This document shows, piece after piece, positions 34,297 to 48,332 of a stretch of DNA of 64,000 nt. The translations under genes and the position numbers were made by a program. The stretch's first letter is position 1. Each line of letters opens with the position of its first letter. The notes under the pieces are model-generated. The model was not told where the DNA came from. It saw only the letters and a list, made by a program, of their open reading frames with translations, and did not search any database. Source of the DNA: Adhaeribacter swui. Its GTDB lineage: Bacteria > Bacteroidota > Bacteroidia > Cytophagales > Hymenobacteraceae. The stretch covers positions 3,540,585 to 3,604,584 of the forward strand of contig NZ_CP055156.1 in assembly GCF_014217805.1 (NCBI RefSeq), given 5' to 3'.

Positions 34297-34310
34297 ATTA
34301 CAAAAATTTT

Positions 34311-34351
34311 AAAAAGCCGGCTGCGAGTAGATTACGTGCAGCCGGCTTTTT
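34311..34351 (+). terminator. Intrinsic terminator after the GH63-like gene
   Basis: AAAAAGCCGGCTGC (34311-34324) pairs with GCAGCCGGCTTTTT (34338-34351), then T. Confidence 0.8.
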
Positions 34352-34506
34352 GTTATCTGCGTAAAGTAGCTGGGCTTGCTAAAAGCGAATCTTATAAAAT
34401 GGGGGTTTATTTTAAATCATTAATAAATTAAATACCCAAATGGCAGTTGTTTATGCTTCGGTAAGGTTAATAGTGGGCAATAACTTATGGGGATGTAACG
34501 GGCTGG

Positions 34507-35451
34507 TTAAACAGGTTCTTTGGCCAAAGCCCAGTGGATTTTTTTCAGTTGGTTAATGTGCCGCTGGGTATGGTAAATAACAAAGTAAACTGCTTCGAGG
34601 CGGGTTAAATAGCCGTAAACCGGTATTTTAAAGGCCAGACAAGTTTTACTTAAATCTAAGGATACAATGGCTTTGCTGATTAATTGCTGAACTTCCTGAA
34701 ATGACTGGAGCAATTCTTCTTTCTGGAAAACGCGGTTTTGGGGCCACACCGAATCAGCCGCTTCTATTTTTAGGTTAACATTTAAAAAATCAGCTTTCAT
34801 TCGGTTAATAAGTTCATCGGGTGGGCGGTTGGTTTCGGTTGCGGGGCCGGTAAGTATTTCTACAAAACCCATGTTCGAGATAATTAAATGCTCAGCTACC
34901 TGGCCGGCAGTCCAGCTACTGGTAAAAGGCACCTGGTTTATTACATCATCTTCAAAAGCGGCGAATTGCTGCTGTAGCGTTAAAGCCGTTTCGTTAAAAG
35001 TACTGATAGCTTCCTGAGCAACGGCATGGGCAGAGCTTTCGGGATTAAACTTGGTTTTTACCAGGCAAAGCATTTCATCGTCGTTCAAGTAAATTTCTAC
35101 GCAGGGTTTGTTTGTATCGCACCGCGGGTCGGCTACCAAATTTTCAAAAATACTTTTTATGGTGTGGGTTTTGGTGCGCCACTCTGATACCCTTATGGCC
35201 AGGTAATCGCCTTGCTCCATCAGGTATTTGTTTAAGCCATATGGTTCCGGATTATCTTGGGGTTGCAGGGGGGCGGCTGCCACGTATACCATACCCGCCG
35301 GCGTGCATTGGCTGATGCCGTAATATGGCCTGCTAGGATCAACGGGTAACATACTGATTAATTTATCGAAAGCGGCTTCGATGTGGTTCGGAAAAGTTTC
35401 TACCGGAAAGCCGTACAATGTTAAGTTCTGGTCTAATTTATAAATTTCCAT
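34507..35451 (-). CDS. GyrI-like ligand-binding + DinB fusion protein
   Basis: A 314-residue two-domain protein. Residues 1-150 look like the GyrI/SOUL-type effector-binding fold found in AraC/MerR regulators (FPNHIEAAFDKLISMLP, YGLNKYLMEQGDYLAIRVSEW, CVEIYLND). Residues 155-310 are DinB: four-helix bundle with metal-binding His in VAEHLIISN and YHTQRHINQLKKI. DinB proteins often act as thiol-dependent enzymes (mycothiol/bacillithiol transfer). Last gene in the minus-strand unit that begins with DoxX at 36633, 39 bases after the VOC gene. A fusion of these two domains is unusual. Confidence 0.82.
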   Translation of the reverse strand: MEIYKLDQNLTLYGFPVETFPNHIEAAFDKLISMLPVDPSRPYYGISQCTPAGMVYVAAAPLQPQDNPEPYGLNKYLMEQGDYLAIRVSEWRTKTHTIKSIFENLVADPRCDTNKPCVEIYLNDDEMLCLVKTKFNPESSAHAVAQEAISTFNETALTLQQQFAAFEDDVINQVPFTSSWTAGQVAEHLIISNMGFVEILTGPATETNRPPDELINRMKADFLNVNLKIEAADSVWPQNRVFQKEELLQSFQEVQQLISKAIVSLDLSKTCLAFKIPVYGYLTRLEAVYFVIYHTQRHINQLKKIHWALAKEPV

Positions 35452-35490
35452 TTTTTAAATTTTTTGTCTATCAAATAGCTTTAGCTATAG

Positions 35491-35880
35491 TTAAGCTTGC
35501 TTCTCTTGTAATACCGACAATATATTGCTCGCCGGATCTTTAAACCAGGCCACATCTACCTGAGGGTTGCGTGAGATGTGGTTTTCATCTGTACCATAGG
35601 CGGGATTCTGGTAGTTTTCAAAAATTACGTTCCGGCTTTTTAGCTCCCGCACAGCTTCATCGATGTTATTTACCCGAAAGTTAAGAATGGTAAAAGTGGC
35701 GGGTTCGTGGTTAGGCTTCGGGTAAATTAAAACCGAGGTGCTTTCGGCGAGGTGCAGGTGTAACAAGCCCATAACCTTATCTTCGGTAACTTCTAATTGT
35801 AAAACCTGGCTGTAAAACTGTTTGGCTTTTTCCAGATCGTCCACGGAAAAACTGCTGAATGCTGGCGTGTTTTTAAACAT
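35491..35880 (-). CDS. VOC family (glyoxalase/bleomycin-resistance fold) protein
   Basis: 129 residues. ATG at 35880 is used; a TTG 90 bases upstream would overlap the next gene and lacks family similarity. Begins FSSFSVDDLEKAKQFYSQVLQLEV, the standard beta-alpha-beta-beta-beta start, and ends with VDVAWFKDPASNILSVLQE. Members chelate a divalent metal and act on aldehydes, glutathione adducts, antibiotics or aromatics. Part of the 36633-34507 unit, downstream of the 74-aa protein (gap 52 bases). Confidence 0.85.
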   Translation of the reverse strand: MFKNTPAFSSFSVDDLEKAKQFYSQVLQLEVTEDKVMGLLHLHLAESTSVLIYPKPNHEPATFTILNFRVNNIDEAVRELKSRNVIFENYQNPAYGTDENHISRNPQVDVAWFKDPASNILSVLQEKQA

Positions 35881-35932
35881 AGAAATTGCTTTAATCACAA
35901 AGGTTATAATAGGATGTAAGTCATCGAAATTT

Positions 35933-36157
35933 TTAAAAATCGTCGGGCAACACCTCGGCTTCGTAGCCAAATTCGCCTAAAAGTTTTATCAGGCAGCTAG
36001 CCCGGATAAACTCGTGGGTGCTGGCTACCCGCAAAATTTTGTCGCAATCTTCCAGGTCGAAGTTAGCCCGGTAGCCTTGGAAAGCCTGGTGAATGTGATC
36101 AACCAGAATAACCGCATGATCCCGGTCTTGCACGTTGGTTTTAAACACTTCTACCAT
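35933..36157 (-). CDS. Small conserved-looking protein, 74 aa
   Basis: ATG 36157 begins MVEVFKTNVQDRDHAVILVDH. The fold pattern V-E-V-F-K-T-N ... I-L-R-V-A-S-T-H is that of a small ferredoxin-like alpha/beta protein (heavy-metal-associated/ACT-like). A GYRANFDLEDCDKILRV stretch contains a Cys. No metal-binding CXXC. Function unknown. It lies between DoxX (68 bases upstream) and VOC in one minus-strand unit. Confidence 0.7.
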   Translation of the reverse strand: MVEVFKTNVQDRDHAVILVDHIHQAFQGYRANFDLEDCDKILRVASTHEFIRASCLIKLLGEFGYEAEVLPDDF

Positions 36158-36225
36158 ACACAATGCTTTGCTGCTGTTGATTAATTAGTTTAGTAGCGAA
36201 ATAGAAATAAAAGCAAAAAGATAAA

Positions 36226-36633
36226 TTAGTTGCCAGATAAACTCATTTGCGGAAGGTTTTCGGAATCGCGGGCTTTTTGCAGCTTGTGGTAATACCCATA
36301 GGAGCCGGCTACCAACAAAATAGGAAGCAGAATGGGTAACCAGTTGGCGGGGGCGTCGCCGCGGCTGAAATGCGAATACATGGCTCCCACTAAATCGAAT
36401 ATTAAGCCGGCGTAGGCCCATTCTTTCAGGCGCGGGTAGCCCGGAATAAGAATCGCAAAAATGCCCAGCAACTTCGCTACGCCCAAAAAAGGAACCAAGT
36501 AAGCCGGATAACCCAAACGGGTAACGTAATCAACGGCTTCCTGCGCCGAGATGGCATCGAAAATAGAACCAAAGCCCAACAGGGCGGCTACCAAACCGGT
36601 AAAAATCCAGTAAATTATTTTAGTCTTTTTCAT
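36226..36633 (-). CDS. DoxX family membrane protein (paralogue 2)
   Basis: 135 residues with four membrane segments: IIYWIFTGLVAALLGFGSIF, LVPFLGVAKLLGIFAILIPGYP, RLKEWAYAGLIFDLVGAMYSH, WLPILLPILLVAGSYGYY. Very similar in layout to the DoxX at 12801-13217 (shared RLKEWAYAG), which is under an HxlR regulator. This copy instead follows tandem-repeat operator site 1 (36841-36877) and heads a four-gene unit (DoxX, 74-aa protein, VOC, GyrI/DinB). Starts at ATG 36633. Confidence 0.88.
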   Translation of the reverse strand: MKKTKIIYWIFTGLVAALLGFGSIFDAISAQEAVDYVTRLGYPAYLVPFLGVAKLLGIFAILIPGYPRLKEWAYAGLIFDLVGAMYSHFSRGDAPANWLPILLPILLVAGSYGYYHKLQKARDSENLPQMSLSGN

Positions 36634-36810
36634 GAGTTTTAAAATTTTTGGATGATTTATGTTTAATAAGTTAATAGCGGGAAATACCCCCCGAATGAGT
36701 GCAGCCGGAATGGTTATTTTTTAAATTTTTAAATTTTAACTGGTTTATTTTGGCCCTAAGCGTTTGATAAATAAGGTTTATTGCTGCTTGTATTTGCTGA
36801 AAACCTAAGG

Positions 36811-36877
36811 TAAAGATAGGCCAAACCTGGTGCTGGAACGGGGGTAAATTACGACAGAAAAAGGGGATTTTACGACA
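36811..36877 (-). promoter_or_regulatory. Tandem-repeat operator and -7 element, site 1
   Basis: Reading toward DoxX: TGTCGTAAAATCCCC, TTTTTC (6 bases), TGTCGTAATTTACCCC (36877-36841), then 22 bases to TATCTTTA (36818-36811), a -7-like element. The TGTCG starts are 21 bp apart. Sites 2 and 3 have the same architecture. The rest of the 36634-37038 gap is A+T-rich 5' leader. Confidence 0.75.
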
Positions 36878-37038
36878 ATCATTAGCCTGGCTCTACAACC
36901 AAGTATAAGTCATTTGGTGGGGTCAGTCGGGCTTTGTTTTGCCTGAGAAATAAAATAATTCTTAAAGGATAAGCTGCGTGGCGGCAATTTTAATTAGCGG
37001 CGGCAACTCAGGAATTTTAAAATTAAAAAATGGCTGCC

Positions 37039-37470
37039 TTAAGCCGGAATGTTAGGGTCGTAGCTAATCATCCATTGTACGCCATACGGATCGGTGAGCA
37101 TGCCAAAATAGGCGCCCCAAAACTCTTTGTGCATCGGCATGGTTGCTTGTCCGCCCGCCGAAAGGGCTTGAAACAAGCGATCGGCTTCGGCTTCGCTGTC
37201 CGGACTAAGCGATAACTGAAAATTAGTGCCGGGTTTAAATGAGTGGCCCATAGCTTCCAGGGCATCGGTCGCCATTAAAATATTATTTGGCCCGATGGGC
37301 AAAGCAATGTGCATGATTTTTTCCTGGTCTTCGGCTGAAAGGTGGGTGCCCTGACCGGTGTCTTTAAACCGGATTAAGTTAGCAAACTCGCCACCAAATA
37401 CCGATTTGTAAAAGTTAAAAGCCGCTTCGGCGGTACCGTTAAAGTTGAGATACGGATTTAGTTTTACCAT
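37039..37470 (-). CDS. PhnB-type VOC protein (paralogue 1)
   Basis: 143 residues of the PhnB/UbiG-like VOC group. Begins VKLNPYLNFNGTAEAAFNFYKSVFGGEF and has MHIALPIGPNNILMATDALEAMGH, NFQLSLSPDSEAEADRLFQALSAGGQATMPMHKEFWGAYFGMLTDPYGVQWMISYD, which is the full family pattern. Paralogue at 46272. Function of the group is not defined (detoxification or sugar ester candidates). It is the third gene behind site 2 on the minus strand (241 bases after the SRPBCC gene, so perhaps with its own promoter). Confidence 0.9.
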   Translation of the reverse strand: MVKLNPYLNFNGTAEAAFNFYKSVFGGEFANLIRFKDTGQGTHLSAEDQEKIMHIALPIGPNNILMATDALEAMGHSFKPGTNFQLSLSPDSEAEADRLFQALSAGGQATMPMHKEFWGAYFGMLTDPYGVQWMISYDPNIPA

Positions 37471-37711
37471 AAACCAAAAATTAAAAATTTTAAAAAATAG
37501 TCAGTTAAATAGTTTAAACCGAAGGTGTAGAATGGCTGCCAACGCCGATTTGGGTTTTTGAATGGCCTTATGTTACCGGAAGATACGCGCAAACTTTGTA
37601 ATTATCGGTAACCGGCTACGGGTATTGTTGCTTGTATTAAAAACTGTAAAGTTTCTGAGGATATAAATTTAGTTAAGCTTTTGCTTTAAAAGCCAGGTAA
37701 ATACGCAATCT

Positions 37712-38254
37712 TTAGTTTTTAGAAACGGGAGTTTGTTCCAGTACGCTTTTCAGGGCGTTTAAACTAACTTCTAAATCTTTACCCAGCAGGCCATCCATAA
37801 ATAAATGCATTAAATTAAACGGGTACGGATTGCCGCCGGCCATGCCCCAGGTAACTTTGGTTTGGTTTGGCGAGAGCGCTTCGGTGGTAAAGGGGGCTTG
37901 CGCCACGCTTGCAAACGGCCGGATAAAGCGCACTTCTACTTCCAACTTTTCGCCTTCGGTAATGGCTTTAATTTCCTGCTCGCCTTCACCGGCTTTGTCG
38001 TTGCCGTTCCAGGCGTAAACAAAGCCTACGGTGCCATCGGTACCGCGGTAGTCTTTTTGCATGTTGGGGTCAGCCCGTACCCATTTACTGTAGTTTTCCT
38101 GATTTTTTAAATGTTTAATGTACCCGAATACTTCTGCTTTGGGTTTGTTAATGGTTATTTCGCGTTTAATAAAATATTGCTTTCGCACAAACAAAGCCGC
38201 TATTAACAAAAACACAACCACCGCTACTATTCCGGTTAAGATATTTACCAGCAT
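37712..38254 (-). CDS. Membrane-anchored SRPBCC (polyketide cyclase-like) protein
   Basis: 180 residues. An N-terminal membrane anchor (ILTGIVAVVVFLLIAALFV) is followed by the START-like SRPBCC fold: REITINKPKAEVFGYIKHLKNQENYSKWVRADPNM, GTDGTVGFVYAWNGNDKAGEGEQEI, EVRFIRPFASVAQAPFTTEALSPNQTKVTWGMAGGNPYPF. Members bind hydrophobic ligands; function unknown. Second gene behind site 2, 166 bases after the AHSA1 gene. Confidence 0.88.
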   Translation of the reverse strand: MLVNILTGIVAVVVFLLIAALFVRKQYFIKREITINKPKAEVFGYIKHLKNQENYSKWVRADPNMQKDYRGTDGTVGFVYAWNGNDKAGEGEQEIKAITEGEKLEVEVRFIRPFASVAQAPFTTEALSPNQTKVTWGMAGGNPYPFNLMHLFMDGLLGKDLEVSLNALKSVLEQTPVSKN

Positions 38255-38420
38255 TTTTATTTTAGTTTGGGATAGATAAATCGGTTAAATTTAAAAATTT
38301 CTGCATTTACTTTTCTAAAATTCAGGAAGTAAGCGCCAGCCGCAAGGCAGTTGTTTTTACTACCGGTTTAATGAAAAAAACACTTTAAATAAACTGGTAG
38401 AATATACCAGATCCGTAGGT

Positions 38421-38864
38421 TTAGTTTTCAGCTAATTCTTTAATTTTTTGAAAAGCCCGGTTCCAGGAGGCCTGCATCATTTCTAAATATTCTGCGCCCA
38501 TATCGGCTTCTACCTCTAAGCGGGTGCGGCCATTCAAATCCACGAGACGGTATATTTCGCGGCCACCTTTTACCGCTTCAGCTTCCGGACTAGAATAATC
38601 TTCCTGGCCGTTGTTTACAATGCCCTGGTACACCAGCGAGAGCAGTTGATGGGGTTGGTTGGCAATTATTTTGGCGACAATGCCGCACTCCGTTTTATCT
38701 TTAAATAAGGCTTTGCTTCCTTCCTGCCAATCGGTTTCGGCGTAAGTGCCTTCCATAAATTCGGCGTACCACTGGCGGTTATATTCGTCCTGGGTTAATA
38801 CTTGCCATACTTTTTCGGTAGGGGCGTTTAATTCAATAACATCTTTTAATACTTGCGTTTCCAT
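38421..38864 (-). CDS. AHSA1-type SRPBCC protein
   Basis: 147 residues: LKDVIELNAPTEKVWQVLTQDEYNRQWYAEFMEGTYAETDWQEGSKALFKD, GIVAKIIANQPHQLLSLVYQGI and the C-terminal helix WNRAFQKIKELAEN. Matches the activator of Hsp90 ATPase homologue 1 (AHSA1)-like group, small cytoplasmic proteins with a hydrophobic cavity. First gene behind tandem-repeat site 2 (39034-39073) and read divergently from the GlxA-type regulator. A TAAGTTTG -7 element (minus strand, 39013-39006) sits 21 bases from the operator. Confidence 0.88.
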   Translation of the reverse strand: METQVLKDVIELNAPTEKVWQVLTQDEYNRQWYAEFMEGTYAETDWQEGSKALFKDKTECGIVAKIIANQPHQLLSLVYQGIVNNGQEDYSSPEAEAVKGGREIYRLVDLNGRTRLEVEADMGAEYLEMMQASWNRAFQKIKELAEN

Positions 38865-39005
38865 CGTTTTTAGTTTTTAGTTTATAAATAGATTAGGAAT
38901 AAATTTAAAAATCAGGTAGTTATATTGGTAGATGTAAAATAAACTATCGGCATCACTAAGACTAAAATTTAAAAATTTTAAATTTTTACTGCTTTCTTGT
39001 TATTA

Positions 39006-39073
39006 CAAACTTACAGCGAAGTTTTGCCAAATAGGGGGTACATTTCCGACATAAAACAGGGTAAATTGCGACA
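39006..39073. promoter_or_regulatory. Tandem-repeat operator and -7 element, site 2
   Basis: Toward the AHSA1 gene: TGTCGCAATTTACCCT (39073-39058), 6 bases, TGTCGGAAATGTACCCCC (39051-39034), then 20 bases to a perfect TAAGTTTG (39013-39006). TGTCG starts are 22 bp apart. The operator starts 66 bases from the GlxA-type regulator ATG, so it could also serve autoregulation. Confidence 0.8.
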
Positions 39074-39138
39074 ATTTTCTTTTGCTTTACTAATTTCTTT
39101 AGTAAATTCGGGCTGCACCTAATTACCTGTTTACCACT

Positions 39139-40119
39139 ATGAAACACATATCTATCCTGGTTCCCAAAGGCGCTATTCTGGGCAGCATCGAAGGCCCGCG
39201 CCAAGTATTTACCGAAGTAAATAAGCTATTAAAGAGTATGGGCAAACCGGCCTTATTTCAGGTGCAATTAGTGGGTTTGGTAAAGGAAGTTCCGGCGGCC
39301 GGCGGCATCTACACGGTTTATACCGATGTATTGGCTCCCGATGTTAAAAAGACTGATTTAATAATTATTCCGGCGCTGGATGGCGATATGGTAAAAACAC
39401 TGGAAACTAACCGGGAATTTATACCTTGGGTGGTGCAGCAATACCAAAATGGGGCCGAAGTAGGTAGTTTATGCGTGGGCGCGTTTTTGCTGGCTTCTAC
39501 GGGTTTGGTAAACGGCCGGAAATGCGCCACGCACTGGATGGCGGCCAAAGATTTCCGGAAAATGTTTCCGGAAGTAAACCTGGTAGAAGATAAAATTATT
39601 ACCGACGAGCAAGGCATTTACTCTAGCGGCGGCGCTTTTTCTTACCTGAATCTAATTTTATACCTTATCGAAAAATACGTGGGCCGCGACATTGCCGTAT
39701 TTATGTCCAAAGCCTTCCAGATTGATATTGAACGGAAAAGCCAATCGCCGTTTGTGATTTTTAACGGCCAAAAAGACCACGAAGACGAGGTAATTAAAAA
39801 AGCTCAGGAAATTATCGAAAACAGCGTAACCGAAAAAATTACCGTAGACCAGCTCGCCGATACCCTGGCCCTGAGCCGCCGCAACCTGGAACGCCGGTTT
39901 AAAAAAGCGACTGCCAACACCGTAGTAGAATACATCCAGCGGGTAAAAATGGAAGCCGCCAAAATGAGCTTAGAAACCTCGCGCGAAAACGTAAACGAAG
40001 TAATGTACAACGTAGGCTACTCCGACCCCAAAGCTTTCCGGGATACTTTTAAAAAAATCACCGGCCTCTCACCGGTACAATACCGCAGCAAATACAACCG
40101 GGAGTTGGTGGCGGCTTAA
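39139..40119 (+). CDS. GlxA-type AraC family regulator
   Basis: A 326-residue regulator. N-terminal DJ-1/PfpI-like (class I glutamine amidotransferase-like) domain, residues 1-190: ISILVPKGAILGSIEGP, DLIIIPALDGDMV, EVGSLCVGAFLLASTGLVNGRKCATHWM with the nucleophile-elbow Cys112. C-terminal AraC/XylS double helix-turn-helix about 225-320: ITVDQLADTLALSRRNLERRFKKATANTVVEYIQRVKMEAA, and VNEVMYNVGYSDPKAFRDTFKKITGLSPVQYR. Ligand unknown. AraC proteins commonly bind direct repeats with 21-bp period, which fits site 2 right upstream. The best candidate controller of the 34-47 kb regulon. Confidence 0.93.
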   Translation: MKHISILVPKGAILGSIEGPRQVFTEVNKLLKSMGKPALFQVQLVGLVKEVPAAGGIYTVYTDVLAPDVKKTDLIIIPALDGDMVKTLETNREFIPWVVQQYQNGAEVGSLCVGAFLLASTGLVNGRKCATHWMAAKDFRKMFPEVNLVEDKIITDEQGIYSSGGAFSYLNLILYLIEKYVGRDIAVFMSKAFQIDIERKSQSPFVIFNGQKDHEDEVIKKAQEIIENSVTEKITVDQLADTLALSRRNLERRFKKATANTVVEYIQRVKMEAAKMSLETSRENVNEVMYNVGYSDPKAFRDTFKKITGLSPVQYRSKYNRELVAA

Positions 40120-40258
40120 GGTTAATCAGGTTTCTTGTTTAATAAGTTAAATAATAGAAGCCGGAAATGTAAAACACTGAAAAGCAAATGGCCGGATTTT
40201 TAAAATTATGGCTCATTTGTTTTTAGTACCTTGACGTTATAAGAGAAAAATTTAAAAA

Positions 40259-41341
40259 ATGACTGAACATAAAGCTTTACAGGTTTTAGTTGTGGGTTGC
40301 GGCAACATGGGCACCTCGCACGCTTTTGCTTACCACATGCTGGATGGTTTCGAAATTTGCGGCATTGTTTCTACGGGCAAGAGCAAAGAAGTTTTAAATC
40401 AAAAACTAGGAGGCGGTTATCCTTTATTCTCGGATTACCCCCAAGCCTTAGCCGCTACCCAACCGGACGCAGTTTGCATTTCTACTTACCCCGATACCCA
40501 CGAACAATTTGCTATTCAGGCATTGGAACAAGGCTGCCACGTGTTCCTGGAGAAACCCATTGCCGATTCGGTAGCGGGAGCGGAACGCGTAGCGGCCGCC
40601 GCCGAAAAAGCCGGTAAAAAAGTAGTGGTAGGTTATATTCTGCGGCACCATCCGTCCTGGATTCAGTTTGTAGCGCTAGCGGGGCAGTTAGGAAAACCTT
40701 TGGTAATGCGCATGAATTTAAATCAGCAAAGCCACGGTGCCGCCTGGGCCGTTCACCGTAACTTAATGAAAAGCTTAAGCCCTATCGTGGATTGCGGCGT
40801 GCATTACATTGACGTGATGTGCCAGATGACCCGTTCGAAACCGGTGCAAGTAAGCGCCATTGGCGCCCGCTTAACCGAGGATATACCCGTAGGAAATTAC
40901 AATTACGGCCAGTTACAGATTCGTTTTGAAGATGGTTCGGTAGGTTGGTACGAAGCCGGTTGGGGACCTATGATCAGCGAAACGGCATTTTTTGTGAAAG
41001 ACGTAATTGGGCCCAAAGGGGCTGTATCCATTGTAGCCAAAGATGCCGGCAGTACTGGCAAGTCCGACTCGGTGGAGGCGCACACCAAAACCGAATGGCT
41101 GCGGTTTCACCGCGCCGAGTTAAACGCGAACGAAGAACTGGCGCGGGAAGACGAATGGATTAGCATGGAAGACGAACCCGACCACCAGGAATTGTGTAAC
41201 CGTGAGCAATTGTATTTTCTAAAAGCCATCCGCGAAAACCTGGATTTAACCGACCACGTGGCTGACGCGGTAAACAGCCTGCGCATTGCCTTTGCCTGCG
41301 ACGAGTCGGTGCGGACGGGCCAGGTAGTGTCTTTACAATAA
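40259..41341 (+). CDS. Gfo/Idh/MocA family oxidoreductase
   Basis: 360 residues, cytoplasmic NAD(P)-dependent dehydrogenase. Rossmann start VLVVGCGNMGTSHAFAY, then DAVCISTYPDTHEQFAIQALEQGCHVFLEKPIADS with the family EKP triplet, and KVVVGYILRHHP. C-terminal sheet ends in PIVDCGVHYIDVMCQM, with the conserved D-x-G-x-H-x-x-D catalytic pattern (DCGVHYID). Members oxidise sugars, inositol or pseudo-sugars, often at C3. No signal peptide. ATG 40259 follows an A/T palindrome (AAATTTAAAAAATG). Runs alone; the next plus gene is 741 bases away. Confidence 0.9.
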   Translation: MTEHKALQVLVVGCGNMGTSHAFAYHMLDGFEICGIVSTGKSKEVLNQKLGGGYPLFSDYPQALAATQPDAVCISTYPDTHEQFAIQALEQGCHVFLEKPIADSVAGAERVAAAAEKAGKKVVVGYILRHHPSWIQFVALAGQLGKPLVMRMNLNQQSHGAAWAVHRNLMKSLSPIVDCGVHYIDVMCQMTRSKPVQVSAIGARLTEDIPVGNYNYGQLQIRFEDGSVGWYEAGWGPMISETAFFVKDVIGPKGAVSIVAKDAGSTGKSDSVEAHTKTEWLRFHRAELNANEELAREDEWISMEDEPDHQELCNREQLYFLKAIRENLDLTDHVADAVNSLRIAFACDESVRTGQVVSLQ

Positions 41342-42082
41342 GGCAAATTAAACCGGGCAAAAATTTAAAAAATGGCGAGATGGGAATGTGGTTTTGCTCG
41401 CAACGAGTATCAGAAATCGTAAAATTTTAAAAATTCCTGTTTCTATATTGGTGTAAGCTGGCATTGAAAATTAATAAAAGTTCGAGATAAGTATTTACTA
41501 ATTCAAACAGCCAATACAAGTACTTATAATAGCCTGAAAACCTCGTTTTACGTCAATTCCCCATTCTATTCTTGTCATCCCGGAGGGATCTAACCAGTAG
41601 GTAATTGATTAGATTCCTTCGGAATGACAAAAATGGAAATAGATAGCTTTCTTCTTTGCGTTATTCCTTAGCGTAAACTCCCGTTAAACTTAGCCAAAAG
41701 TATTTCCCGGAATTTCTACATTCCAGAAATGCCTCTTCTTATCAAATCTCCAGGAAAAAGAACCAATGTAATTTTTCCGGTAACCCATTGTTTTTAAAAA
41801 TGCTATATGCATTGAGTTCGGCAAATAGTTTTACAAAAGATTTTGCAGTTAAAATAACTCCCACGGAACTCATATTTTCAGAATATTAGGTATTCAAAAT
41901 AAGAAATTTTAAAAACAATAGGTATAAATACGTATTTCGGAAGGATTGAAGCACCGGCTGAAACTTTAAAAACCAAGACTAGTACTGTATAAAACTGTTC
42001 CGCAACCAGGAACAATTTCAGAGTTTATCTGAATGTTTGAAGTTGTACGATAAGTATTAGTTAACCAGAAAAACGAAGTTTT
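41342..42082. other. 741-base intergenic region upstream of the zinc ADH
   Basis: Holds repeat D (41572-41630) and an inverted repeat TGTTCC (41996-42001), 7 bases, GGAACA (42009-42014), 68 bases before the zinc ADH start, perhaps an operator. No gene could be supported; frames are short and A+T-rich. Confidence 0.4.
41572..41630 (+). repeat. Dispersed repeat, family D, copy 1
   Basis: 59-nt palindrome-like element: TTGTCATCCCGGAGGGATCT at the left pairs imperfectly with AGATTCCTTCGGAATGACAA at the right, with AACCAGTAGGTAATTGATT in the loop. Copy 2 at 59809-59863 shares the loop ACCAGTAAGTGATGGATT and the right arm. Confidence 0.8.
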
Positions 42083-43237
42083 ATGCTAGCAATGGATTAT
42101 CGCGGACCCAAAAGGGTTCGTGTCACTCAAAAGCCCATGCCCGAAATAAAGCATCCCGAAGATGCCATTATTCGGGTTACCCGTTCTTGTATTTGCGGGT
42201 CGGATTTGCATTTATATAACGGCAACGTGCCGGATACCCGCGTAGGCACTACCTTCGGCCACGAATTTGTGGGAATAGTAGAAGAAATTGGGTCGGAAGT
42301 AACTAAGTTAAAAGTAGGGGACCACGTGCTGGTGCCGTTTAACATTGCCTGCGGTCGTTGTCATTTCTGTAAGCAAGGTTTATTTGGTAATTGCCACGAG
42401 TCTAACCCCATGGCTACAGCCGTTGGCGGTATTTTTGGTTATTCGCATACGGCCGGTGGTTTCAACGGGGGCCAGGCCGAATACGTGCGCGTTCCTTACG
42501 CCAACGTGAGTCCTACGGTTATACCCGAAGGCATGCATATTGAAGATGCTGTGATGCTTACCGACGTAGTACCCACTGGTTACCAGGCCGCCGAAATGGG
42601 CGGTATTCAGCCGGGCGATACGGTAGTGGTGTTCGGGGCCGGACCGGTGGGCATTATGGCGGCAAAATGTTCCTGGCTGTTTGGGGCGGGTCGTGTTATT
42701 ATCATCGACCACGTAGAATACCGGCTGGAGTTTGCCCGCAATTACGCGCAGTGCGAAGCTTATAATTTCCGGGAAATGGAAGACCCCGTGGTATTTATTA
42801 AAAAAACCACCGATTGGATGGGAGCCGACGTGGTAATTGATGCCGTAGGGGCCGAAGCTGCCGGTAATACCATGCAAACCATTACGGGGCGTAAAACCTT
42901 ATTGCAGGCCGGTTCGGCTACAGCTTTACACTGGGCTATTAACTCAGTTAAAAAAGGCGGTATTGTTTCGATTGTGGGAGTTTACGGACCTACCGATAAC
43001 CTGGTGCCGATTGGTAACGTGCTGAATAAAGGGCTAACCATCCGGGCGAACCAGGCTTCGGTAAAACGGTTGCTACCGCGCTTAATCGAGCACGTGCAAA
43101 ACGGCATTATCAACCCGAAAGCTTTAATTACGCACCGCATTCCGCTGGAAGAAGTGGCCGATGGCTACCGTTTATTCTCGGCTAAACTGGATAATTGCAT
43201 TAAACCGGTTCTTATTCCCCCATCTGCCCGTATGTAA
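42083..43237 (+). CDS. Zinc-dependent alcohol dehydrogenase (formaldehyde dehydrogenase-like)
   Basis: A 384-residue medium-chain dehydrogenase. Catalytic zinc ligands Cys38 (CGSD), His60 and Glu61 (GHE); structural zinc Cys90, Cys93, Cys96 and Cys104. NAD(P) motif VVVFGAGPVGIMAA. The VVPTGYQAAEMGGIQPGD, DAVGAEAAGNTMQTIT and CKQGLFGNCHESNPMATAVGGIFGYSHTAGGFNGGQAEYVRVP stretches resemble the glutathione-independent formaldehyde dehydrogenase group. Substrate not known. First gene of a two-gene unit with 43249, only 11 bases apart. Confidence 0.9.
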   Translation: MLAMDYRGPKRVRVTQKPMPEIKHPEDAIIRVTRSCICGSDLHLYNGNVPDTRVGTTFGHEFVGIVEEIGSEVTKLKVGDHVLVPFNIACGRCHFCKQGLFGNCHESNPMATAVGGIFGYSHTAGGFNGGQAEYVRVPYANVSPTVIPEGMHIEDAVMLTDVVPTGYQAAEMGGIQPGDTVVVFGAGPVGIMAAKCSWLFGAGRVIIIDHVEYRLEFARNYAQCEAYNFREMEDPVVFIKKTTDWMGADVVIDAVGAEAAGNTMQTITGRKTLLQAGSATALHWAINSVKKGGIVSIVGVYGPTDNLVPIGNVLNKGLTIRANQASVKRLLPRLIEHVQNGIINPKALITHRIPLEEVADGYRLFSAKLDNCIKPVLIPPSARM

Positions 43238-43248
43238 ATTTTAAAATT

Positions 43249-43809
43249 ATGGAAAATTTAAAAAAAGATTACTCGCATATAAAAGGTTGGGGCATTGATG
43301 CCGATCCGCAAAACGACCCCACTTACCCCATGAAACCGCACCGCACCGATGCAGAACAAGCGGGCTATAGCTGGGAACGCCCCACCCAACAACCCGTAGA
43401 CGTAGAAGTGCTGCATTCCATTGAACGCCCGAACGTATCAGCGGTATTTGGTACTGCTTCGCCACCTTCGGGTTTAAGCGGTATGATTCGTCGATTTGCC
43501 TTTCGTTACAGCGAAAACAGCTACCTGCATTGGTTGCCGCTTATCTTGGCCGATCGGGTAAACGTAGTAGAAGGCGTAATTGATGATTTTAAAAATGGCC
43601 ACGTACCCAATATTTTCGTCGAAAAAGGCTACAAAGCCGAATGGAAACACGATAAAGTTGGCTTGATCACTAAATTTGCCGTAGCCGCCGCCGTAGTAGC
43701 GGGCGTAGTAGTTTTACTCAGAGGCAAAGACGACGACCATGACTACGATGATTACGATCAATTAACGCCGTATAATGATCGCGATGATTATGATACCTAC
43801 GATTCGTAA
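43249..43809 (+). CDS. Conserved-looking protein with membrane segment and Asp/Tyr tail
   Basis: 186 residues, start 11 bases after the dehydrogenase stop. N-terminal cytosolic half: KGWGIDADPQNDPTYPMKPHRTDAEQAGYSW, then SGLSGMIRRFAFRYSENSYLHWLPLILADRVNVVEGVIDDF with a weak hydrophobic patch; one membrane segment (KFAVAAAVVAGVVVLLRG, about residue 145); then an acidic, Tyr-rich tail (DDDHDYDDYDQLTPYNDRDDYDTY). I do not know a function. From memory a similar protein commonly sits next to such a dehydrogenase in Bacteroidota (not checked). Probable membrane-anchored partner. Confidence 0.75.
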   Translation: MENLKKDYSHIKGWGIDADPQNDPTYPMKPHRTDAEQAGYSWERPTQQPVDVEVLHSIERPNVSAVFGTASPPSGLSGMIRRFAFRYSENSYLHWLPLILADRVNVVEGVIDDFKNGHVPNIFVEKGYKAEWKHDKVGLITKFAVAAAVVAGVVVLLRGKDDDHDYDDYDQLTPYNDRDDYDTYDS

Positions 43810-43830
43810 ATAATAACATAGAGGTATAAA

Positions 43831-43869
43831 CTAAAAAAACCGACGGAGCTTAATCCGTCGGTTTTTTAG
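43831..43869 (+). terminator. Intrinsic terminator of the ADH operon
   Basis: CTAAAAAAACCGACGGA pairs with TCCGTCGGTTTTTTAG (43831-43847 and 43854-43869). 22 bases after the stop. Confidence 0.8.
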
Positions 43870-43943
43870 TTTATAGCTGGTAATTAATTTATTTAAAAAA
43901 AAAACATTATTCTGCAATCAACCCGAAATTTTAAAAATTCAAA

Positions 43944-44819
43944 TTAAACCCCGTAGTGCTCCCGCAGAATATTAACAAAAACTTCCATGTTATGCGACCA
44001 CGGAATATGCCCGCTACCCGGAATAAAAATAATGGGAATGGTGGGATAACGCCGCATTACGCATCTTTTACTTTTGCCATAAATATCGCGGGCGCCGTAG
44101 GCAATGGTTAACTTATATTCCGGAATAATTTTTTCGGGCAGCAAAGGATATTTTAAAATAGCTTTAACAGTTTGGTTAATGGCTTTGGCTTTAATGCAAT
44201 CCAAGGCAAACTTTTCGGTGTAGGCTTCGGTAAAGCCCCGGCTAAAATTACGCAGCGCCTGGCTGTAAAACTTCTGGTACGCTTTATCGCTACCCAACAA
44301 GCCCAGCCCCGACTCTGCTTGCATGGCTACCCATTCGGTATAGCTGCTTTTATTTTTGTTGTAATCGGCAATTTCCAGCATGGTGTCTTTCCACTGTTTG
44401 CCGGTACCGGTAGCGGGACTGCATAAAAACATACTTAACAACCGTTCCGGGTGCTGTTGGGCATAAACCTGGGCGTACAAGCCGCCCCACGAATGCCCAA
44501 ATAAATGAAATTGCTCTAGTTTAAAATAATCGGCCAAACAATTAACATCCGACACGTAACTTTCCAGCGAAAAATCGTTTGATTTGGTGGGTGATTGGCG
44601 TGTGCCCCGCTGGTGAAAGTCGATGATTTGGTAATGCGCTTGTAAATATTTCGTGATAAAGCTTAAGCCTTCGGGCACGCCGGGGCCCCCGTGCAATAAA
44701 ATAATGGTTTCTTTGTCTTTATTCGGGTAAAAACGAGTAAATAAAGTAGTATCCTTATTCTGAATCAGCAATTCTCTGGAGCGTTCTTGTTCTACCACGG
44801 GCGTTTCTATTCTATTCAA
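43944..44819 (-). CDS. Alpha/beta hydrolase, proline iminopeptidase-like
   Basis: A 291-residue alpha/beta hydrolase with the HGGPG oxyanion motif (43-47) and GHSWGG with nucleophile Ser110; His in GSGHIPWS closes the triad. RGTRQSPTKSNDFSLESYVSDVNCLADYF and the loop between are as in prolyl iminopeptidase/epoxide hydrolase-type enzymes. There is no in-frame ATG before residue 130, so the start is an in-frame TTG (44819) or an internal GTG. That makes the true N-terminus uncertain. Convergent with the ADH operon. Confidence 0.8.
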   Translation of the reverse strand: MNRIETPVVEQERSRELLIQNKDTTLFTRFYPNKDKETIILLHGGPGVPEGLSFITKYLQAHYQIIDFHQRGTRQSPTKSNDFSLESYVSDVNCLADYFKLEQFHLFGHSWGGLYAQVYAQQHPERLLSMFLCSPATGTGKQWKDTMLEIADYNKNKSSYTEWVAMQAESGLGLLGSDKAYQKFYSQALRNFSRGFTEAYTEKFALDCIKAKAINQTVKAILKYPLLPEKIIPEYKLTIAYGARDIYGKSKRCVMRRYPTIPIIFIPGSGHIPWSHNMEVFVNILREHYGV

Positions 44820-45018
44820 ATTTCGGAGCTTTTAACCTTCGGTTCAATTTGGAAAATTTTAAAATTAAATGATTCATACGAATCTTAGTTTTCCGGGATT
44901 AATAAATAAAACGTAATTGAAAAATAAAGATTTTATAGGCTCTATTTAATAGCGGAATATACTTTAACCAAGAAATATAAAAGAATATGAAAGTGCTTAA
45001 AAGCCAGGCTAGAAGAGC

Positions 45019-45048
45019 TTGGATAAGAGAAAACTACCGCTTAATTTG
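45019..45048 (+). promoter_or_regulatory. Bacteroidota-type promoter of the 45068 lipoprotein
   Basis: TTG (45019-45021), 19-base spacer, TTAATTTG (45041-45048), then 19 bases to ATG 45068. Confidence 0.5.
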
Positions 45049-45067
45049 AGTCAAATTTAAAAAATAC

Positions 45068-45676
45068 ATGCATCGACTGAAAATTTACTTTATCTGGTGC
45101 TGCCTGGCGGCCGCTTTTATAGCTTGTGATAAAAAAGAAAATGCGTCACCCACCGCTAACCAGGATTACATTCCTACCACAGCCGGCTCTACGTGGTCGT
45201 ACGGAGGCAGTATGCCGTACATCTTATCGGCTACCGGCCAAACCAAAGAAATTAATGGTAAAACTTATTTCGAGCTGGAAACCAAACAAGGCACTAATAT
45301 TAGTAAGTCGTACATTAACCATGAAAAAAGCGTGTATACGGCCGTGGGCCTGGTACCTAACCTGGGCGACGTAGAAGTAATGTTGTTAAAAGAAGAAACA
45401 CCCGTTGGCAAACCCTGGGAGCAAACTACCAATTTTAACGGCGTTGATACTAAATTAACTTTTACCATTCTGGAGAAAGATGTAAGTAAAGTAGTAGAAG
45501 GTAAAACCTACCAGAAAGTAATCCACGTGAAAATGACCGTGAATTACACCTTTATGGGAGTAGATTTAGGTTCTAACTTAGCTTCGGAGTTGTATTTTGC
45601 TAAAGGGGTTGGGCTTATTTTATCTGATTTAGGTACTTACGGGCAATCGGCTTTGCTGAACTACGACGTAAAATAA
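45068..45676 (+). CDS. Lipoprotein of unknown function
   Basis: 202 residues; lipobox FIAC with Cys20 marks a lipoprotein, followed by a short acidic linker (DKKENASPTANQDYIPTTAGSTWSYGG). The body is beta-strand-rich: LSATGQTKEINGKTYFELETKQG, VVEGKTYQKVIHVKMTVNYTFMGVDLGSNLASELYFAKGVGLILSDLGTYGQSALL. This 'KEVGLVKS'-type end is common in Bacteroidota lipoproteins. No known function. Terminator follows. Confidence 0.75.
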   Translation: MHRLKIYFIWCCLAAAFIACDKKENASPTANQDYIPTTAGSTWSYGGSMPYILSATGQTKEINGKTYFELETKQGTNISKSYINHEKSVYTAVGLVPNLGDVEVMLLKEETPVGKPWEQTTNFNGVDTKLTFTILEKDVSKVVEGKTYQKVIHVKMTVNYTFMGVDLGSNLASELYFAKGVGLILSDLGTYGQSALLNYDVK

Positions 45677-45729
45677 GTATTTCGCCAGCTAGGGGAGCTA
45701 GTACTAGTTGTAGCTGGATAACGTAAAAC

Positions 45730-45764
45730 AAAAAGCAGCGGCTGTAAATAGCTGCTGCTTTTTT
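45730..45764 (+). terminator. Intrinsic terminator after the lipoprotein
   Basis: AAAAAGCAGC (45730-45739) pairs with GCTGCTTTTT (45754-45763), then T. Confidence 0.75.
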
Positions 45765-45807
45765 GTTTTATAACTAACCATCGTCATTCTATAACTTCAG
45801 CCTCAGC

Positions 45808-46230
45808 CTAAATCGAAGCTTTCCTGATTTTATTCTTTGCTGTTAGCTTTTTTAAAGCATCCAGTTCTTCGTTTTCCTGCAAGCGTAATTGCACAATTCG
45901 CCGGATCAGATCGTTGGGTAAAGGTTTTTGAAAAGTAAAATGAATGGTAGCACCCGCTGTTTTAAAGCCCCGTAACTCCGAAGCAAAAATTTTTAAAATT
46001 TCTTTATTTATCACGAACAATGAGCAATGATTTTTATAACCGGCAAAGTAAACGACTGGCCCCAGGTACTTATAACCAGGAACCTGGTAGCTGATTACTT
46101 CTTGGGCCAGCGGAGCCGTTGCCCGAATAACTTGCCTCACGTTTTCTAGTGTTAATTTTACCGCTTCCGGAAAAGCCTGTAAATACGCGTCTACATCGGG
46201 GGCAATGGGGGAAGTAGCAGTTGCTTTCAT
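45808..46230 (-). CDS. DUF1801 family protein
   Basis: 140 residues of the DUF1801 (YdhG-like) fold: VDAYLQAFPEAVKLTLENVRQVIRATAPLAQEVISYQVPGYKYLGPVVYFAGYKNHCSLFVINKEILKIF. The YKYLGPVVYFAGYKNHCSLF stretch is the core of the domain. A Lys/Arg-rich end. Function unknown (some relatives were proposed as iron chaperones). It is 41 bases after PhnB paralogue 2, same direction, so it belongs to the unit behind site 3. An inverted repeat CCGGTAA ... TTACCGG lies in the spacer. Confidence 0.85.
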   Translation of the reverse strand: MKATATSPIAPDVDAYLQAFPEAVKLTLENVRQVIRATAPLAQEVISYQVPGYKYLGPVVYFAGYKNHCSLFVINKEILKIFASELRGFKTAGATIHFTFQKPLPNDLIRRIVQLRLQENEELDALKKLTAKNKIRKASI

Positions 46231-46271
46231 CCGGTAATTTAATGAACAATTGGCATTTTTTACCGGAAAAT

Positions 46272-46763
46272 TTATGTTGTTTTAGCCGGTTCTGCTTCGG
46301 CGGCCCGGATTAAAGCGGGTATATCAATTTTACTCATTTGCATCATGGCTTGCATCACGCGGATCGATTTTTCCGGGTCGGGGTGCTGCAGCAGTTTGGG
46401 TAACACCGGTGGCACTACTTGCCACGATAAACCGTATTTATCTTTCAGCCAGCCGCATCTGCCGGGTTCGCCCCCAGCCGAGAGTTGCTCCCACATGCTA
46501 TCAATTTCGTCCTGGGTTTCGCAGTTCACCACAAACGATATGGCTTCCGTAAATTTGTATAGGGGGCCGCCGTTTAAAGCCACAAAGTCCTGGCCGTTTA
46601 AAGTAAAAGACGCTGTTAATACACCTCCCGCACCATTGCGCACCACACTGTTTATTTTCGAATTTTTAAAAATAGAAGTATAAAAATGCATGGCCTCTTC
46701 GGCCTGGTTATCGAACCATAAAAAAGGGGTAATTTTCTGTGGGCTGTTTGTGGCTTGTTCCAT
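46272..46763 (-). CDS. PhnB-type VOC protein (paralogue 2)
   Basis: 163 residues from ATG 46763. A longer frame to 46895 has no family similarity and crosses the operator. ITPFLWFDNQAEEAMHFYTSIFKNSKI, GPLYKFTEAISFVVNCETQDEIDSMWEQLSAGGEPGRCGWLKDKYGLSWQVVPPVLPKLL match the 3-demethylubiquinone-methyltransferase-like VOC (PhnB) group, which binds metal. Paralogue of 37039-37470. Directly downstream of site 3. Confidence 0.9.
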   Translation of the reverse strand: MEQATNSPQKITPFLWFDNQAEEAMHFYTSIFKNSKINSVVRNGAGGVLTASFTLNGQDFVALNGGPLYKFTEAISFVVNCETQDEIDSMWEQLSAGGEPGRCGWLKDKYGLSWQVVPPVLPKLLQHPDPEKSIRVMQAMMQMSKIDIPALIRAAEAEPAKTT

Positions 46764-46789
46764 GATTAAGTTTCTTTTATTTGTTTGTA

Positions 46790-46856
46790 CAAATATGAGC
46801 AAACAACAACTGATTTTAGGGGTACAAAAACGACAAAGAATGGGGTAATTGCGGCA
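46790..46856 (-). promoter_or_regulatory. Tandem-repeat operator and -7 element, site 3
   Basis: Toward the PhnB gene: TGCCGCAATTACCCC (46856-46842), 6 bases, TGTCGTTTTTGTACCCC (46835-46819), then 21 bases to CATATTTG (46797-46790), the -7 element. TGTCG starts are 21 bp apart. The operator lies 56 bases from the start codon. Confidence 0.75.
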
Positions 46857-46868
46857 GAATGAGTAAAG

Positions 46869-46917
46869 GGATATTGGATGTTGGATATTAGACACTAGAC
46901 ACTAGATATTAGATTTA
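46869..46917. repeat. Degenerate short tandem repeat
   Basis: Stretch of GATATTGGATGTTGGATATT followed by AGACACTAGACACTAGATAT: repeated TAGA/GGAT units. A similar run TTTAGATTTAGATGTTTGAT occurs at 27866. Low-complexity, no known function. The gap 46764-47156 holds this and site 3 only. Confidence 0.4.
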
Positions 46918-47156
46918 CAAACGGCCGTATGTAAGGTTTAAATTTGGTGTCCATCATATTTAATTAAAGTTGTCGAGTTTTAAAATACGCTAGGTGTAAT
47001 TTATAAAGTTTTGGTTTAAAAGCTTGCATCTGGGGCCTGGTAATTCCGGAAAGTTAAGGTGAGTGGGGGCTTAACCATATACTGTTTTCTGATTTTTAAA
47101 TTTTTTGCTTTCCTCTGATTTATTTAGTTAATTATCAGATTAAACGGTTCAAAATC

Positions 47157-48332
47157 ATGCGACTATCTGTAACTTTAAACGGGTATTGGGCTAAGCTGCC
47201 ACTAGTAATTTGGTTATGCTACGGCATAGGTTTGTTTTTCTTTTGCGGTCTGGTTCAAGCAAAGACCAAAACGGGAAGTACTACGCCCTTTGTTATTAAA
47301 CGGGGTACCAATATCAGCCATTGGCTGTCGCAAAGTACGCGGGTAGGGGCCGAACGAAAAGCTTTTTTCACGGAAAAAGACGTGGCCAATATTGCGGCTC
47401 TGGGCTTTGATCATATCCGGTTACCTATCGACGAAATGCAAATGTGGAACGAAGCCGGCCAAAAAGAGCCCGAAGCTTTTGCTTTGTTGCACGATGCCTT
47501 AAAGTGGTGCCAGAAATACAAACTTAAAACCGTAGTGGATTTGCACATTCTGCGGTCGCATTACTTTAACGCCACCGAAAAACCTCTTTTCACGCAGGTA
47601 GCGGCCCAGGAACGTTTTTACCAGTGTTGGCGCGATTTATCAGGAGAGTTAATAAAATATCCGATTACCCAGGTTGCTTACGAGCTCATGAACGAACCTG
47701 TAGCCGATGATCCGGAAGATTGGAACAAAATTGTGGATAAAGCCATTGCGGTTATCCGGGCGAAAGAACCCCGCCGGATTATTGTGGTAGGCTCTAACCG
47801 CTGGCAATCGCACGAAGAATTTGATAAATTACGTATACCCGCCAACGATAAAAATCTGTTATTAAGCTTTCATTATTACCTGCCTTTTTTGCTTACCCAC
47901 TACCAGGCCAGTTGGACTAAAATTGCTGCCTACAAAGGACCGGTGCATTATCCGGGCCGCACGGTTACCGACGAAGAACTGGCCGCGCTACCCGCCGACA
48001 TGGTTAGCCTGATTACAGATAACGAAAAGAGCCGGATTAAAACGGTATATAACGCCGCTAAATTTCAGGAAGATTTTCAAAAGCCCCTGGATTTTGCCCG
48101 TAAGCACGGTTTAAAGTTGTACTGTGGTGAATGGGGCGCGTTAAATACCGCTCCCAAAGCCGACCGGTTGCGCTGGTACCAGGACATGGTAACGGTGCTG
48201 GAAAAAAATAATATTGCCTGGGCTAACTGGGATTACAAAGGCGGCGGCTTCGGCTTCACGAATGCGCAAGGAGAAAACCACCAACCCGAAATGATTAAGA
48301 TTTTAACGGGTAAAGACGTAACAGCAAAATAA
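47157..48332 (+). CDS. Secreted GH5-type glycoside hydrolase
   Basis: 391 residues with an N-terminal hydrophobic segment (VIWLCYGIGLFFFCGLVQA) as signal peptide or anchor. Catalytic acid/base Glu180 in ELMNEP, nucleophile Glu325 in LYCGEWG; TNISHWLSQ, LGFDHIRLPID, VVDLHILR and SFHYYLPFLLTH match the endoglucanase (cellulase) layout. Probable beta-glucanase or mannanase. ANWDYKGGGFG closes the site. The start is ATG 47157. Confidence 0.9.
   Translation: MRLSVTLNGYWAKLPLVIWLCYGIGLFFFCGLVQAKTKTGSTTPFVIKRGTNISHWLSQSTRVGAERKAFFTEKDVANIAALGFDHIRLPIDEMQMWNEAGQKEPEAFALLHDALKWCQKYKLKTVVDLHILRSHYFNATEKPLFTQVAAQERFYQCWRDLSGELIKYPITQVAYELMNEPVADDPEDWNKIVDKAIAVIRAKEPRRIIVVGSNRWQSHEEFDKLRIPANDKNLLLSFHYYLPFLLTHYQASWTKIAAYKGPVHYPGRTVTDEELAALPADMVSLITDNEKSRIKTVYNAAKFQEDFQKPLDFARKHGLKLYCGEWGALNTAPKADRLRWYQDMVTVLEKNNIAWANWDYKGGGFGFTNAQGENHQPEMIKILTGKDVTAK

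Follow-up and report, generated by a model that had tools for sequence, protein, structure and literature searches.

Locus organisation

The window analysed here, a 64,000-nucleotide stretch of the Adhaeribacter swui genome (contig NZ_CP055156.1), contains a gene for a GlxA-type AraC regulator (hereafter araC) and three promoters with a tandem operator, behind which lie nine genes of families that are usually annotated separately (Table 1). An initial annotation had placed the nine genes under an operator of the neighbouring regulator, and this reading is supported by the conservation of the operator, its rarity in the genome, its co-occurrence with the regulator and the gene families shared by its putative targets. 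All three promoters were found on the minus strand at the positions first proposed, with half-sites repeated at periods of 21, 22 and 21 bp at sites 1, 2 and 3. The half-sites stand in direct orientation, 21–22 bp apart, the first with the consensus TGTCGCAATCAACCC and the second with the looser consensus TGTCGnAATTnnCCC. The common layout TGTCGnAAwTnTACCCC, as originally described, is approximate: the tandem arrangement holds, but the distance from TGTCG to the run of C varies between half-sites, and the first half-site of site 3 reads TGCCG where all the others carry TGTCG. Each operator is followed by the expected −7 element, which in Bacteroidota is reported to read TAnnTTTG, numbered T−12 to G−5 (PMC6847099). 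The octamer starts 38 bp downstream of the second TGTCG at all three sites, and those of site 3 (CATATTTG) and site 1 (TATCTTTA) each depart from TAnnTTTG at one position.

The window has three matches to the simple pattern TGTCG N15–18 TGTCG, where 100 shuffles predict 0.14; two of them are sites 1 and 2 and one is an unrelated place, while site 3 offers no exact fit. A tandem weight matrix, with site 2 in its training set and sites 1 and 3 outside it, gave only the three sites as matches above 15 bits. Generic signals did not differ from shuffled sequence (22 sigma-70-type promoters versus 23.0; 18 terminators versus 19.1). An RNA element was considered and rejected, as an Rfam search of positions 34000–48000 returned no match and the operator, lying upstream of the −7 element, falls outside the predicted target transcript.

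The regulator

The domain content of the araC product agrees with its first identification as a GlxA-type AraC regulator, with operator 2 diverging from its gene on the opposite strand. The protein combines an N-terminal DJ-1/PfpI domain (PF01965, residues 38–178, E 7.9e-13) with a C-terminal AraC double helix-turn-helix (HTH; PF12833, E 3.5e-20, and PF00165 in two stretches). FtrA and GbdR are the nearest curated NCBIfam families over most of its length, but with 161 of 425 bits and 107 of 480 bits the scores fall below the curated cut-offs, so neither name applies. In an alignment of 27 sequences including that of the window, Cys112 and His132 of the sensor domain are invariant, as are R247, R248, R252 and R253 of the first HTH. 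An aligned Cys is present at the position of Cys112 in DJ-1 homolog D and in two other ThiJ/PfpI structures. In the AdpA structure 3w6v, the segment aligned to the recognition helix SRRNLERRF reads SRRTFDRRF, with the arginines in register. Arg262 and Arg266 of AdpA are reported as DNA-reading residues (PMC8994273), and by their spacing would correspond to R248 and R252 of the window regulator. Paralogs of about 50 percent identity at two loci (L125, 5115–5183; L126, 4997–5065) appear to be natural specificity variants: at least one half-site of their operators carries TGTCAT where TGTCG is usual, and the proteins read GRRTFERRF where the window regulator has SRRNLERRF.

Conservation of the operator beside the regulator

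In a survey of 150 genomes of the family, the regulator was detected at E <= 1e-40 in 63 genomes with 66 matches, and the family loci comprise the window, for its own match, and surrounding stretches of at most 11 kb for the other 65. The weight matrix was fitted iteratively to the sequence upstream of araC in these loci, so that counts there describe fitted data. An operator of at least 20 bits, adjoining araC and directed away from it, was present in 62 of the 66 family loci. Among these 62 sites the half-sites are spaced by 21 bp in 31 and by 22 bp in 31, and a −7 element with at most one departure follows the second half-site in every case, at 37 bp in nine, 38 bp in 51 and 39 bp in two. 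In an alignment of the sites, conservation is seen in the half-sites and the −7 element but not in the spacers. Four family loci lack an operator of at least 20 bits (L074, L118, L123 and L127); two of them belong to paralogs with 53 and 38 percent identity (L123 and L127), and at L118 the N-terminus is unmatched, making the start position unreliable and the missing operator perhaps an artefact. Across all fetched stretches and the window the matrix gave 81 matches above 20 bits versus none in the reversed sequence, these 81 being mostly training sites or sites on stretches picked for having one.

The association extends beyond the family. A scan of a collection of named genomes with the regulator alignment, from which the best 80 loci were kept (seven of them repeating family loci), gave a divergent operator of at least 15 bits at 61 loci and a same-strand operator at none. 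Removing 11 loci titled Adhaeribacter, Hymenobacter or Rufibacter, among them the seven repeats, leaves 50 of 69 with a divergent operator and none with one on the same strand, and 39 of these 50 have an exact TAnnTTTG at 37 or 38 bp. Scan loci carrying the operator include those of Mucilaginibacter, Pedobacter, Chitinophaga, Segetibacter, Spirosoma, Dyadobacter and Emticicia, while at certain other loci of Mucilaginibacter, Pedobacter and Spirosoma it is absent. Regulator and operator also occur together at three loci titled candidate division KSB1, BMS3Abin03 and Williamsia (L253, L265 and L291, respectively), of which the Williamsia bin, we would guess, is probably wrongly assigned.

Specificity and co-occurrence across genomes

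The initial annotation proposed a search for the motif in the whole genome and in related genomes, with equally frequent sites inside genes or in unrelated places speaking against a regulon. A sequence-only profile built from 64 sites, including the three window sites, recovered four sites in the A. swui genome at E <= 3.4e-5, and the next match had E 0.07, so that such a scatter was not seen at this threshold. The fourth site, which was not in the profile, lies 2.1 Mb away (contig C3, 5682925–5682991) before a DoxX_2 gene and a PhnB-like gene.

In related genomes the operator, conserved beside the regulator, also co-occurs with it across both family and class. A profile site at E <= 1e-3 was present in 61 of the 63 family genomes with the regulator versus three of the 87 without it, in a search with stricter filters that lose weak matches. 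Since training of the profile had drawn on sites beside the regulator, those away from it were counted separately: 45 of 48 lie in regulator-bearing genomes, and 24 of 63 family genomes with the regulator hold one versus three of 87 without (p 4e-8). At class level a site was found in 23 of 38 genomes with the regulator (E <= 1e-70) versus one of 257 without, or 21 of 36 versus one of 257 when the two regulator-bearing genomes of the training family are removed.

Gene families behind the operators

The gene content behind sites away from the regulator bears out the suggestion that separately annotated families share one type of operator. Fifty-five stretches were collected for such sites (L129–L143 and L186–L225); six of them (L141, L142, L143, L212, L218 and L221) hold no matrix site above 12 bits and fall outside the 56 sites considered. 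With 13 seed proteins (AHSA1/SRPBCC, PhnB, VOC, DoxX, RibD_C, DUF1801, ArsR and others), a seed-matching protein lay within 700 bp of 55 of the 56 sites versus 15 of 1120 random positions in the same stretches, although four of the seeds came from behind such sites and four of the 55 matches are to the site's own seed (two window sites, L129 and L064). Because of this overlap, a stricter count used the nine window proteins as sole seeds and excluded the window sites, giving 32 of 54 versus 13 of 1026 random positions, with positions lacking any frame of 60 aa removed from both denominators.

Pfam assignments were made for the longest first frame, leaving out eight of 117 sites without a first frame of 90 aa (four of the 56 away from the regulator and four of the 61 scan loci). 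At the remaining 52 sites away from the regulator, PF06983 (17), PF00903 (17) and Ble-like_N (12) were most frequent, followed by AHSA1, DoxX_2 and Polyketide_cyc2 (seven each), RibD_C (four), ArsR HTH (three) and DUF1801 (one), some frames matching more than one family. At 57 of the 61 operator-bearing scan loci the matches listed, which cover 25 of 35 families, comprise Glyoxalase (18), PF06983 (12), AHSA1 (nine), RibD_C and Ble-like_N (five each), Polyketide_cyc2 (four), DinB_2 (three), DoxX_2, DUF1801, serine hydrolase and pentapeptide (two each), and single cases such as Cass2 and an ECF sigma factor.

In the window itself, the gene-family calls made at the outset agree with Pfam for DinB, VOC, DoxX, both PhnB proteins, SRPBCC, AHSA1 and DUF1801; the GyrI-like part of the DinB protein is a weak match. 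The 74-aa protein matched nothing in Pfam or NCBIfam at E <= 0.001, and its family recurs in regulon operons of other genomes. Relatives of the site 3 gene in two congeneric genomes (73 and 74 percent identical; L209 and L220) have an operator site of their own, likewise away from the regulator. In three congeneric genomes (L064:7750, L065:8772 and L066:9469) the operator precedes an ArsR gene, behind which lie VOC and DoxX genes and, by blast, a member of the 74-aa family, an arrangement that could represent a regulator cascade.

Table 1 Operators, regulator and genes of the putative regulon, in window coordinates
Feature	Position	Strand	Details
DinB_2 protein with GyrI-like N-terminal part	34507..35451	−	PF12867 E 9e-13; PF06445 E 0.0025 (weak)
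VOC (glyoxalase superfamily) protein	35491..35880	−	PF00903 E 1e-7; start codon chosen by the authors
74-aa protein, unknown family	35933..36157	−	Family recurs in regulon operons elsewhere
DoxX_2 membrane protein, first gene behind operator 1	36226..36633	−	PF13564 E 1.3e-22
Operator/promoter 1	36810..36877	−	Half-sites from 36877 and 36856; −7 octamer TATCTTTA at 36818–36811; matrix 23.4 bits; profile E 3.4e-5 in own genome
PhnB-like VOC protein	37039..37470	−	PF06983 (3-dmu-9_3-mt) and PF00903; NCBIfam YjdN model below cut-off
SRPBCC (Polyketide_cyc2) protein	37712..38254	−	PF10604 E 1.4e-7
AHSA1 (SRPBCC superfamily) protein, first gene behind operator 2	38421..38864	−	PF08327 E 6.2e-10
Operator/promoter 2, divergent from araC	39005..39073	−	Half-sites from 39073 and 39051; −7 octamer TAAGTTTG at 39013–39006; matrix 34.5 bits; profile E 5.5e-9
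GlxA-type AraC regulator, 326 aa	39139..40119	+	DJ-1/PfpI sensor domain and AraC HTH; PF01965, PF12833, PF00165
DUF1801 protein	45808..46230	−	PF08818 E 3.2e-14
PhnB-like protein, first gene behind operator 3	46272..46763	−	PF06983 (3-dmu-9_3-mt) E 9e-44
Operator/promoter 3	46789..46856	−	Half-sites TGCCG from 46856 and TGTCG from 46835; −7 octamer CATATTTG at 46797–46790; matrix 26.3 bits; profile E 3.0e-5

Proposed mechanism and alternatives

We consider it likely that the AraC protein encoded at 39139 binds these operators at about −72 to −34 and activates the promoters that they precede, probably limiting its own synthesis as well. The protein would then be the DNA-binding regulator of a small, dispersed regulon, reading two direct half-sites 21–22 bp, or two helical turns, apart. 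Numbering the −7 element as −12 to −5 places the second half-site at −50 to about −34 and the start of the first at about −72, so that the pair touches the −33 region. Such a placement is that of AraC-family class II activators, and here the operator stands next to the −33/−35 region in a fixed phase to the promoter (37–39 bp in 62 of 62 sites), which argues for contact with the polymerase. The bound protein may accordingly replace a weak −33 contact and recruit RNA polymerase by class II activation, in the manner of E. coli AraC at I1–I2. The units under its control would be the minus-strand operons of the three window sites and the DoxX-PhnB unit of the fourth genome site.

Self-limitation is suggested by the position of the operator relative to araC. 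At 82 of 123 loci (62 from the family and 61 from the scan, with seven present in both sets) 15–30 bp separate its edge from the start codon of araC, and in 54 of these 82 an octamer resembling TAnnTTTG (at most one departure) precedes araC, versus 13.35 in letter shuffles; for the exact octamer the counts are 24 versus 0.8. The octamer starts 12 or 13 bp ahead of the start codon in 46 of the 54, for example at L082, L105 and L107, and the araC transcript is thus predicted to be leaderless, or nearly so, in many relatives. In most relatives the operator would consequently occupy the −33 region of araC itself, and the regulator would therefore probably limit its own synthesis. In the window, where the operator-to-araC distance is 65 bp, this argument does not apply in the same form.

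Several observations weigh against the regulator acting through these sites as proposed. One family locus with a regulator 81 percent identical (L074) has no operator beside araC, its sites lying elsewhere in the genome; 19 of the 80 best scan loci have no divergent operator; and in 15 of the 38 regulator-bearing class genomes no profile site reached E <= 1e-3. Conversely, two family genomes (G130, locus L194; G112, locus L215) have sites before AHSA1-like genes but gave no match to the regulator at E <= 1e-15; at class level, G292 has a site without the regulator at the threshold used; the site in a third family genome (G149, locus L217) looks like a chance match. The count of four sites in the A. 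swui genome was obtained with a profile trained on three of them, and 3er6, a related solved sensor domain of a putative transcriptional regulator, has no Cys aligned to Cys112.

These genomes with a site and no regulator at the thresholds used, three in the family and one in the class, are what would be expected if another DNA-binding protein, conserved alongside the regulator, bound the sites while the AraC protein controlled something else. We regard this as quite improbable, since the operator stands beside araC in 62 of 66 family and 61 of 80 scan loci even though the neighbouring target differs (AHSA1, DoxX, PhnB or VOC), site and regulator co-occur in family and class, and a TGTCG direct repeat is a known type of site for GlxA-type regulators. 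It is likewise unlikely, if somewhat easier to envisage, that the same regulator owns the sites but represses the target promoters and leaves upon contact with a ligand. Repression is within the range of AraC-type proteins, and araC itself is probably limited through this operator, judging from the operator-to-start distances; however, the operator ends upstream of the −33 region, where an activator would be expected, and a repressor would have no need of the 37–39 bp phase seen in all 62 sites. Short motifs do recur in AT-rich intergenic DNA, and a chance similarity, or a dispersed repeat lying upstream of genes by accident, was therefore also considered. This explanation is hardly credible and was rejected on the reversed-sequence and random-position controls (0 versus 81 matches, the latter mostly from the training set; 15 of 1120 versus 55 of 56), and conservation is confined to the half-sites and the −7 element.

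Signal and physiological role

Sensing and dimerisation are probably functions of the DJ-1/PfpI domain of the AraC protein, in which Cys112 and His132 are invariant. Several folds of the target set are associated with drug binding or thiol-dependent modification. Most of the products belong to families whose members bind small molecules or alter them, so that the regulon most likely responds to a small molecule that is toxic or foreign. The gene set points to a chemical stress, and from the invariant Cys the signal may be an electrophile or a sulfur species. The reactive small molecule put forward as signal in the initial annotation has only the invariant Cys and His of the sensor domain in its favour; the results otherwise speak neither for nor against it.

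A more specific and distinctly tentative possibility is a chemical-defence regulon found throughout the Bacteroidota, in which a DJ-1-domain AraC protein would sense an electrophile or foreign small molecule via Cys112 and His132, induce SRPBCC, VOC/Ble-like, DinB, GyrI-like, RibD_C and DoxX proteins, and restrain its own leaderless gene. If so, binding and modifying proteins that are annotated separately would constitute one chemical-defence set. More generally, the regulator and its two-part operator are found together in many Bacteroidota, where the operator precedes similar kinds of genes for handling small molecules, suggesting that these genes form a single shared response. This provides a defined operator, a named candidate regulator and a genome-by-genome list of putative targets for common but poorly understood families (AHSA1/SRPBCC, PhnB/VOC, DoxX, DUF1801, RibD_C and the 74-aa protein), so that the single signal of the regulator, once found, would give a physiological context to all target families together, in many taxonomic families of the phylum.

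Comparison with known systems

At the I1–I2 sites of araBAD, E. coli AraC binds direct repeats about 21 bp apart that end next to the −35 region, and its divergent gene is self-repressing. The system described here resembles it in repeat spacing, promoter-adjacent position and divergent regulator, and differs in its sensor domain and in having a Bacteroidota promoter.

Pseudomonas ArgR is itself a GlxA-type regulator. Its ARG box is a tandem of TGTCGCN6GNAA with 5 bp between the repeats and a less conserved second repeat (PMC10963909). The operators of the present system share the tandem TGTCGC half-sites, the weaker second repeat and the 21-bp period (exactly 21 bp in 31 of the 62 family sites, the others having 22 bp), while half-site positions 13–16 have a CnCC consensus in place of GNAA. 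The targets also differ, being arginine genes for ArgR and SRPBCC, VOC and DoxX genes here. The kind of regulator and operator is thus already known from the TGTCG/21-bp layout of the ArgR boxes; for this regulon, its spread and its gene set, no report was found in the literature searched, which comprised open-licence papers only and does not imply absence from print.

Streptomyces AdpA shares the combination of a DJ-1/PfpI domain with an AraC HTH and, beyond the similar recognition helix, a TGnC core within its site TGGCSNGWWY. PMC9952706 gives this site and reports a response of AdpA to sulfane sulfur via Cys62, a Cys-based response that may be likened to the one proposed for Cys112. AdpA is further reported to control hundreds of genes (PMC8994273), unlike the four sites of the A. 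swui genome. Together with the ArgR boxes, the operators described here suggest that TGTCG-type tandem recognition is common to GlxA-type regulators of Proteobacteria and Bacteroidota.

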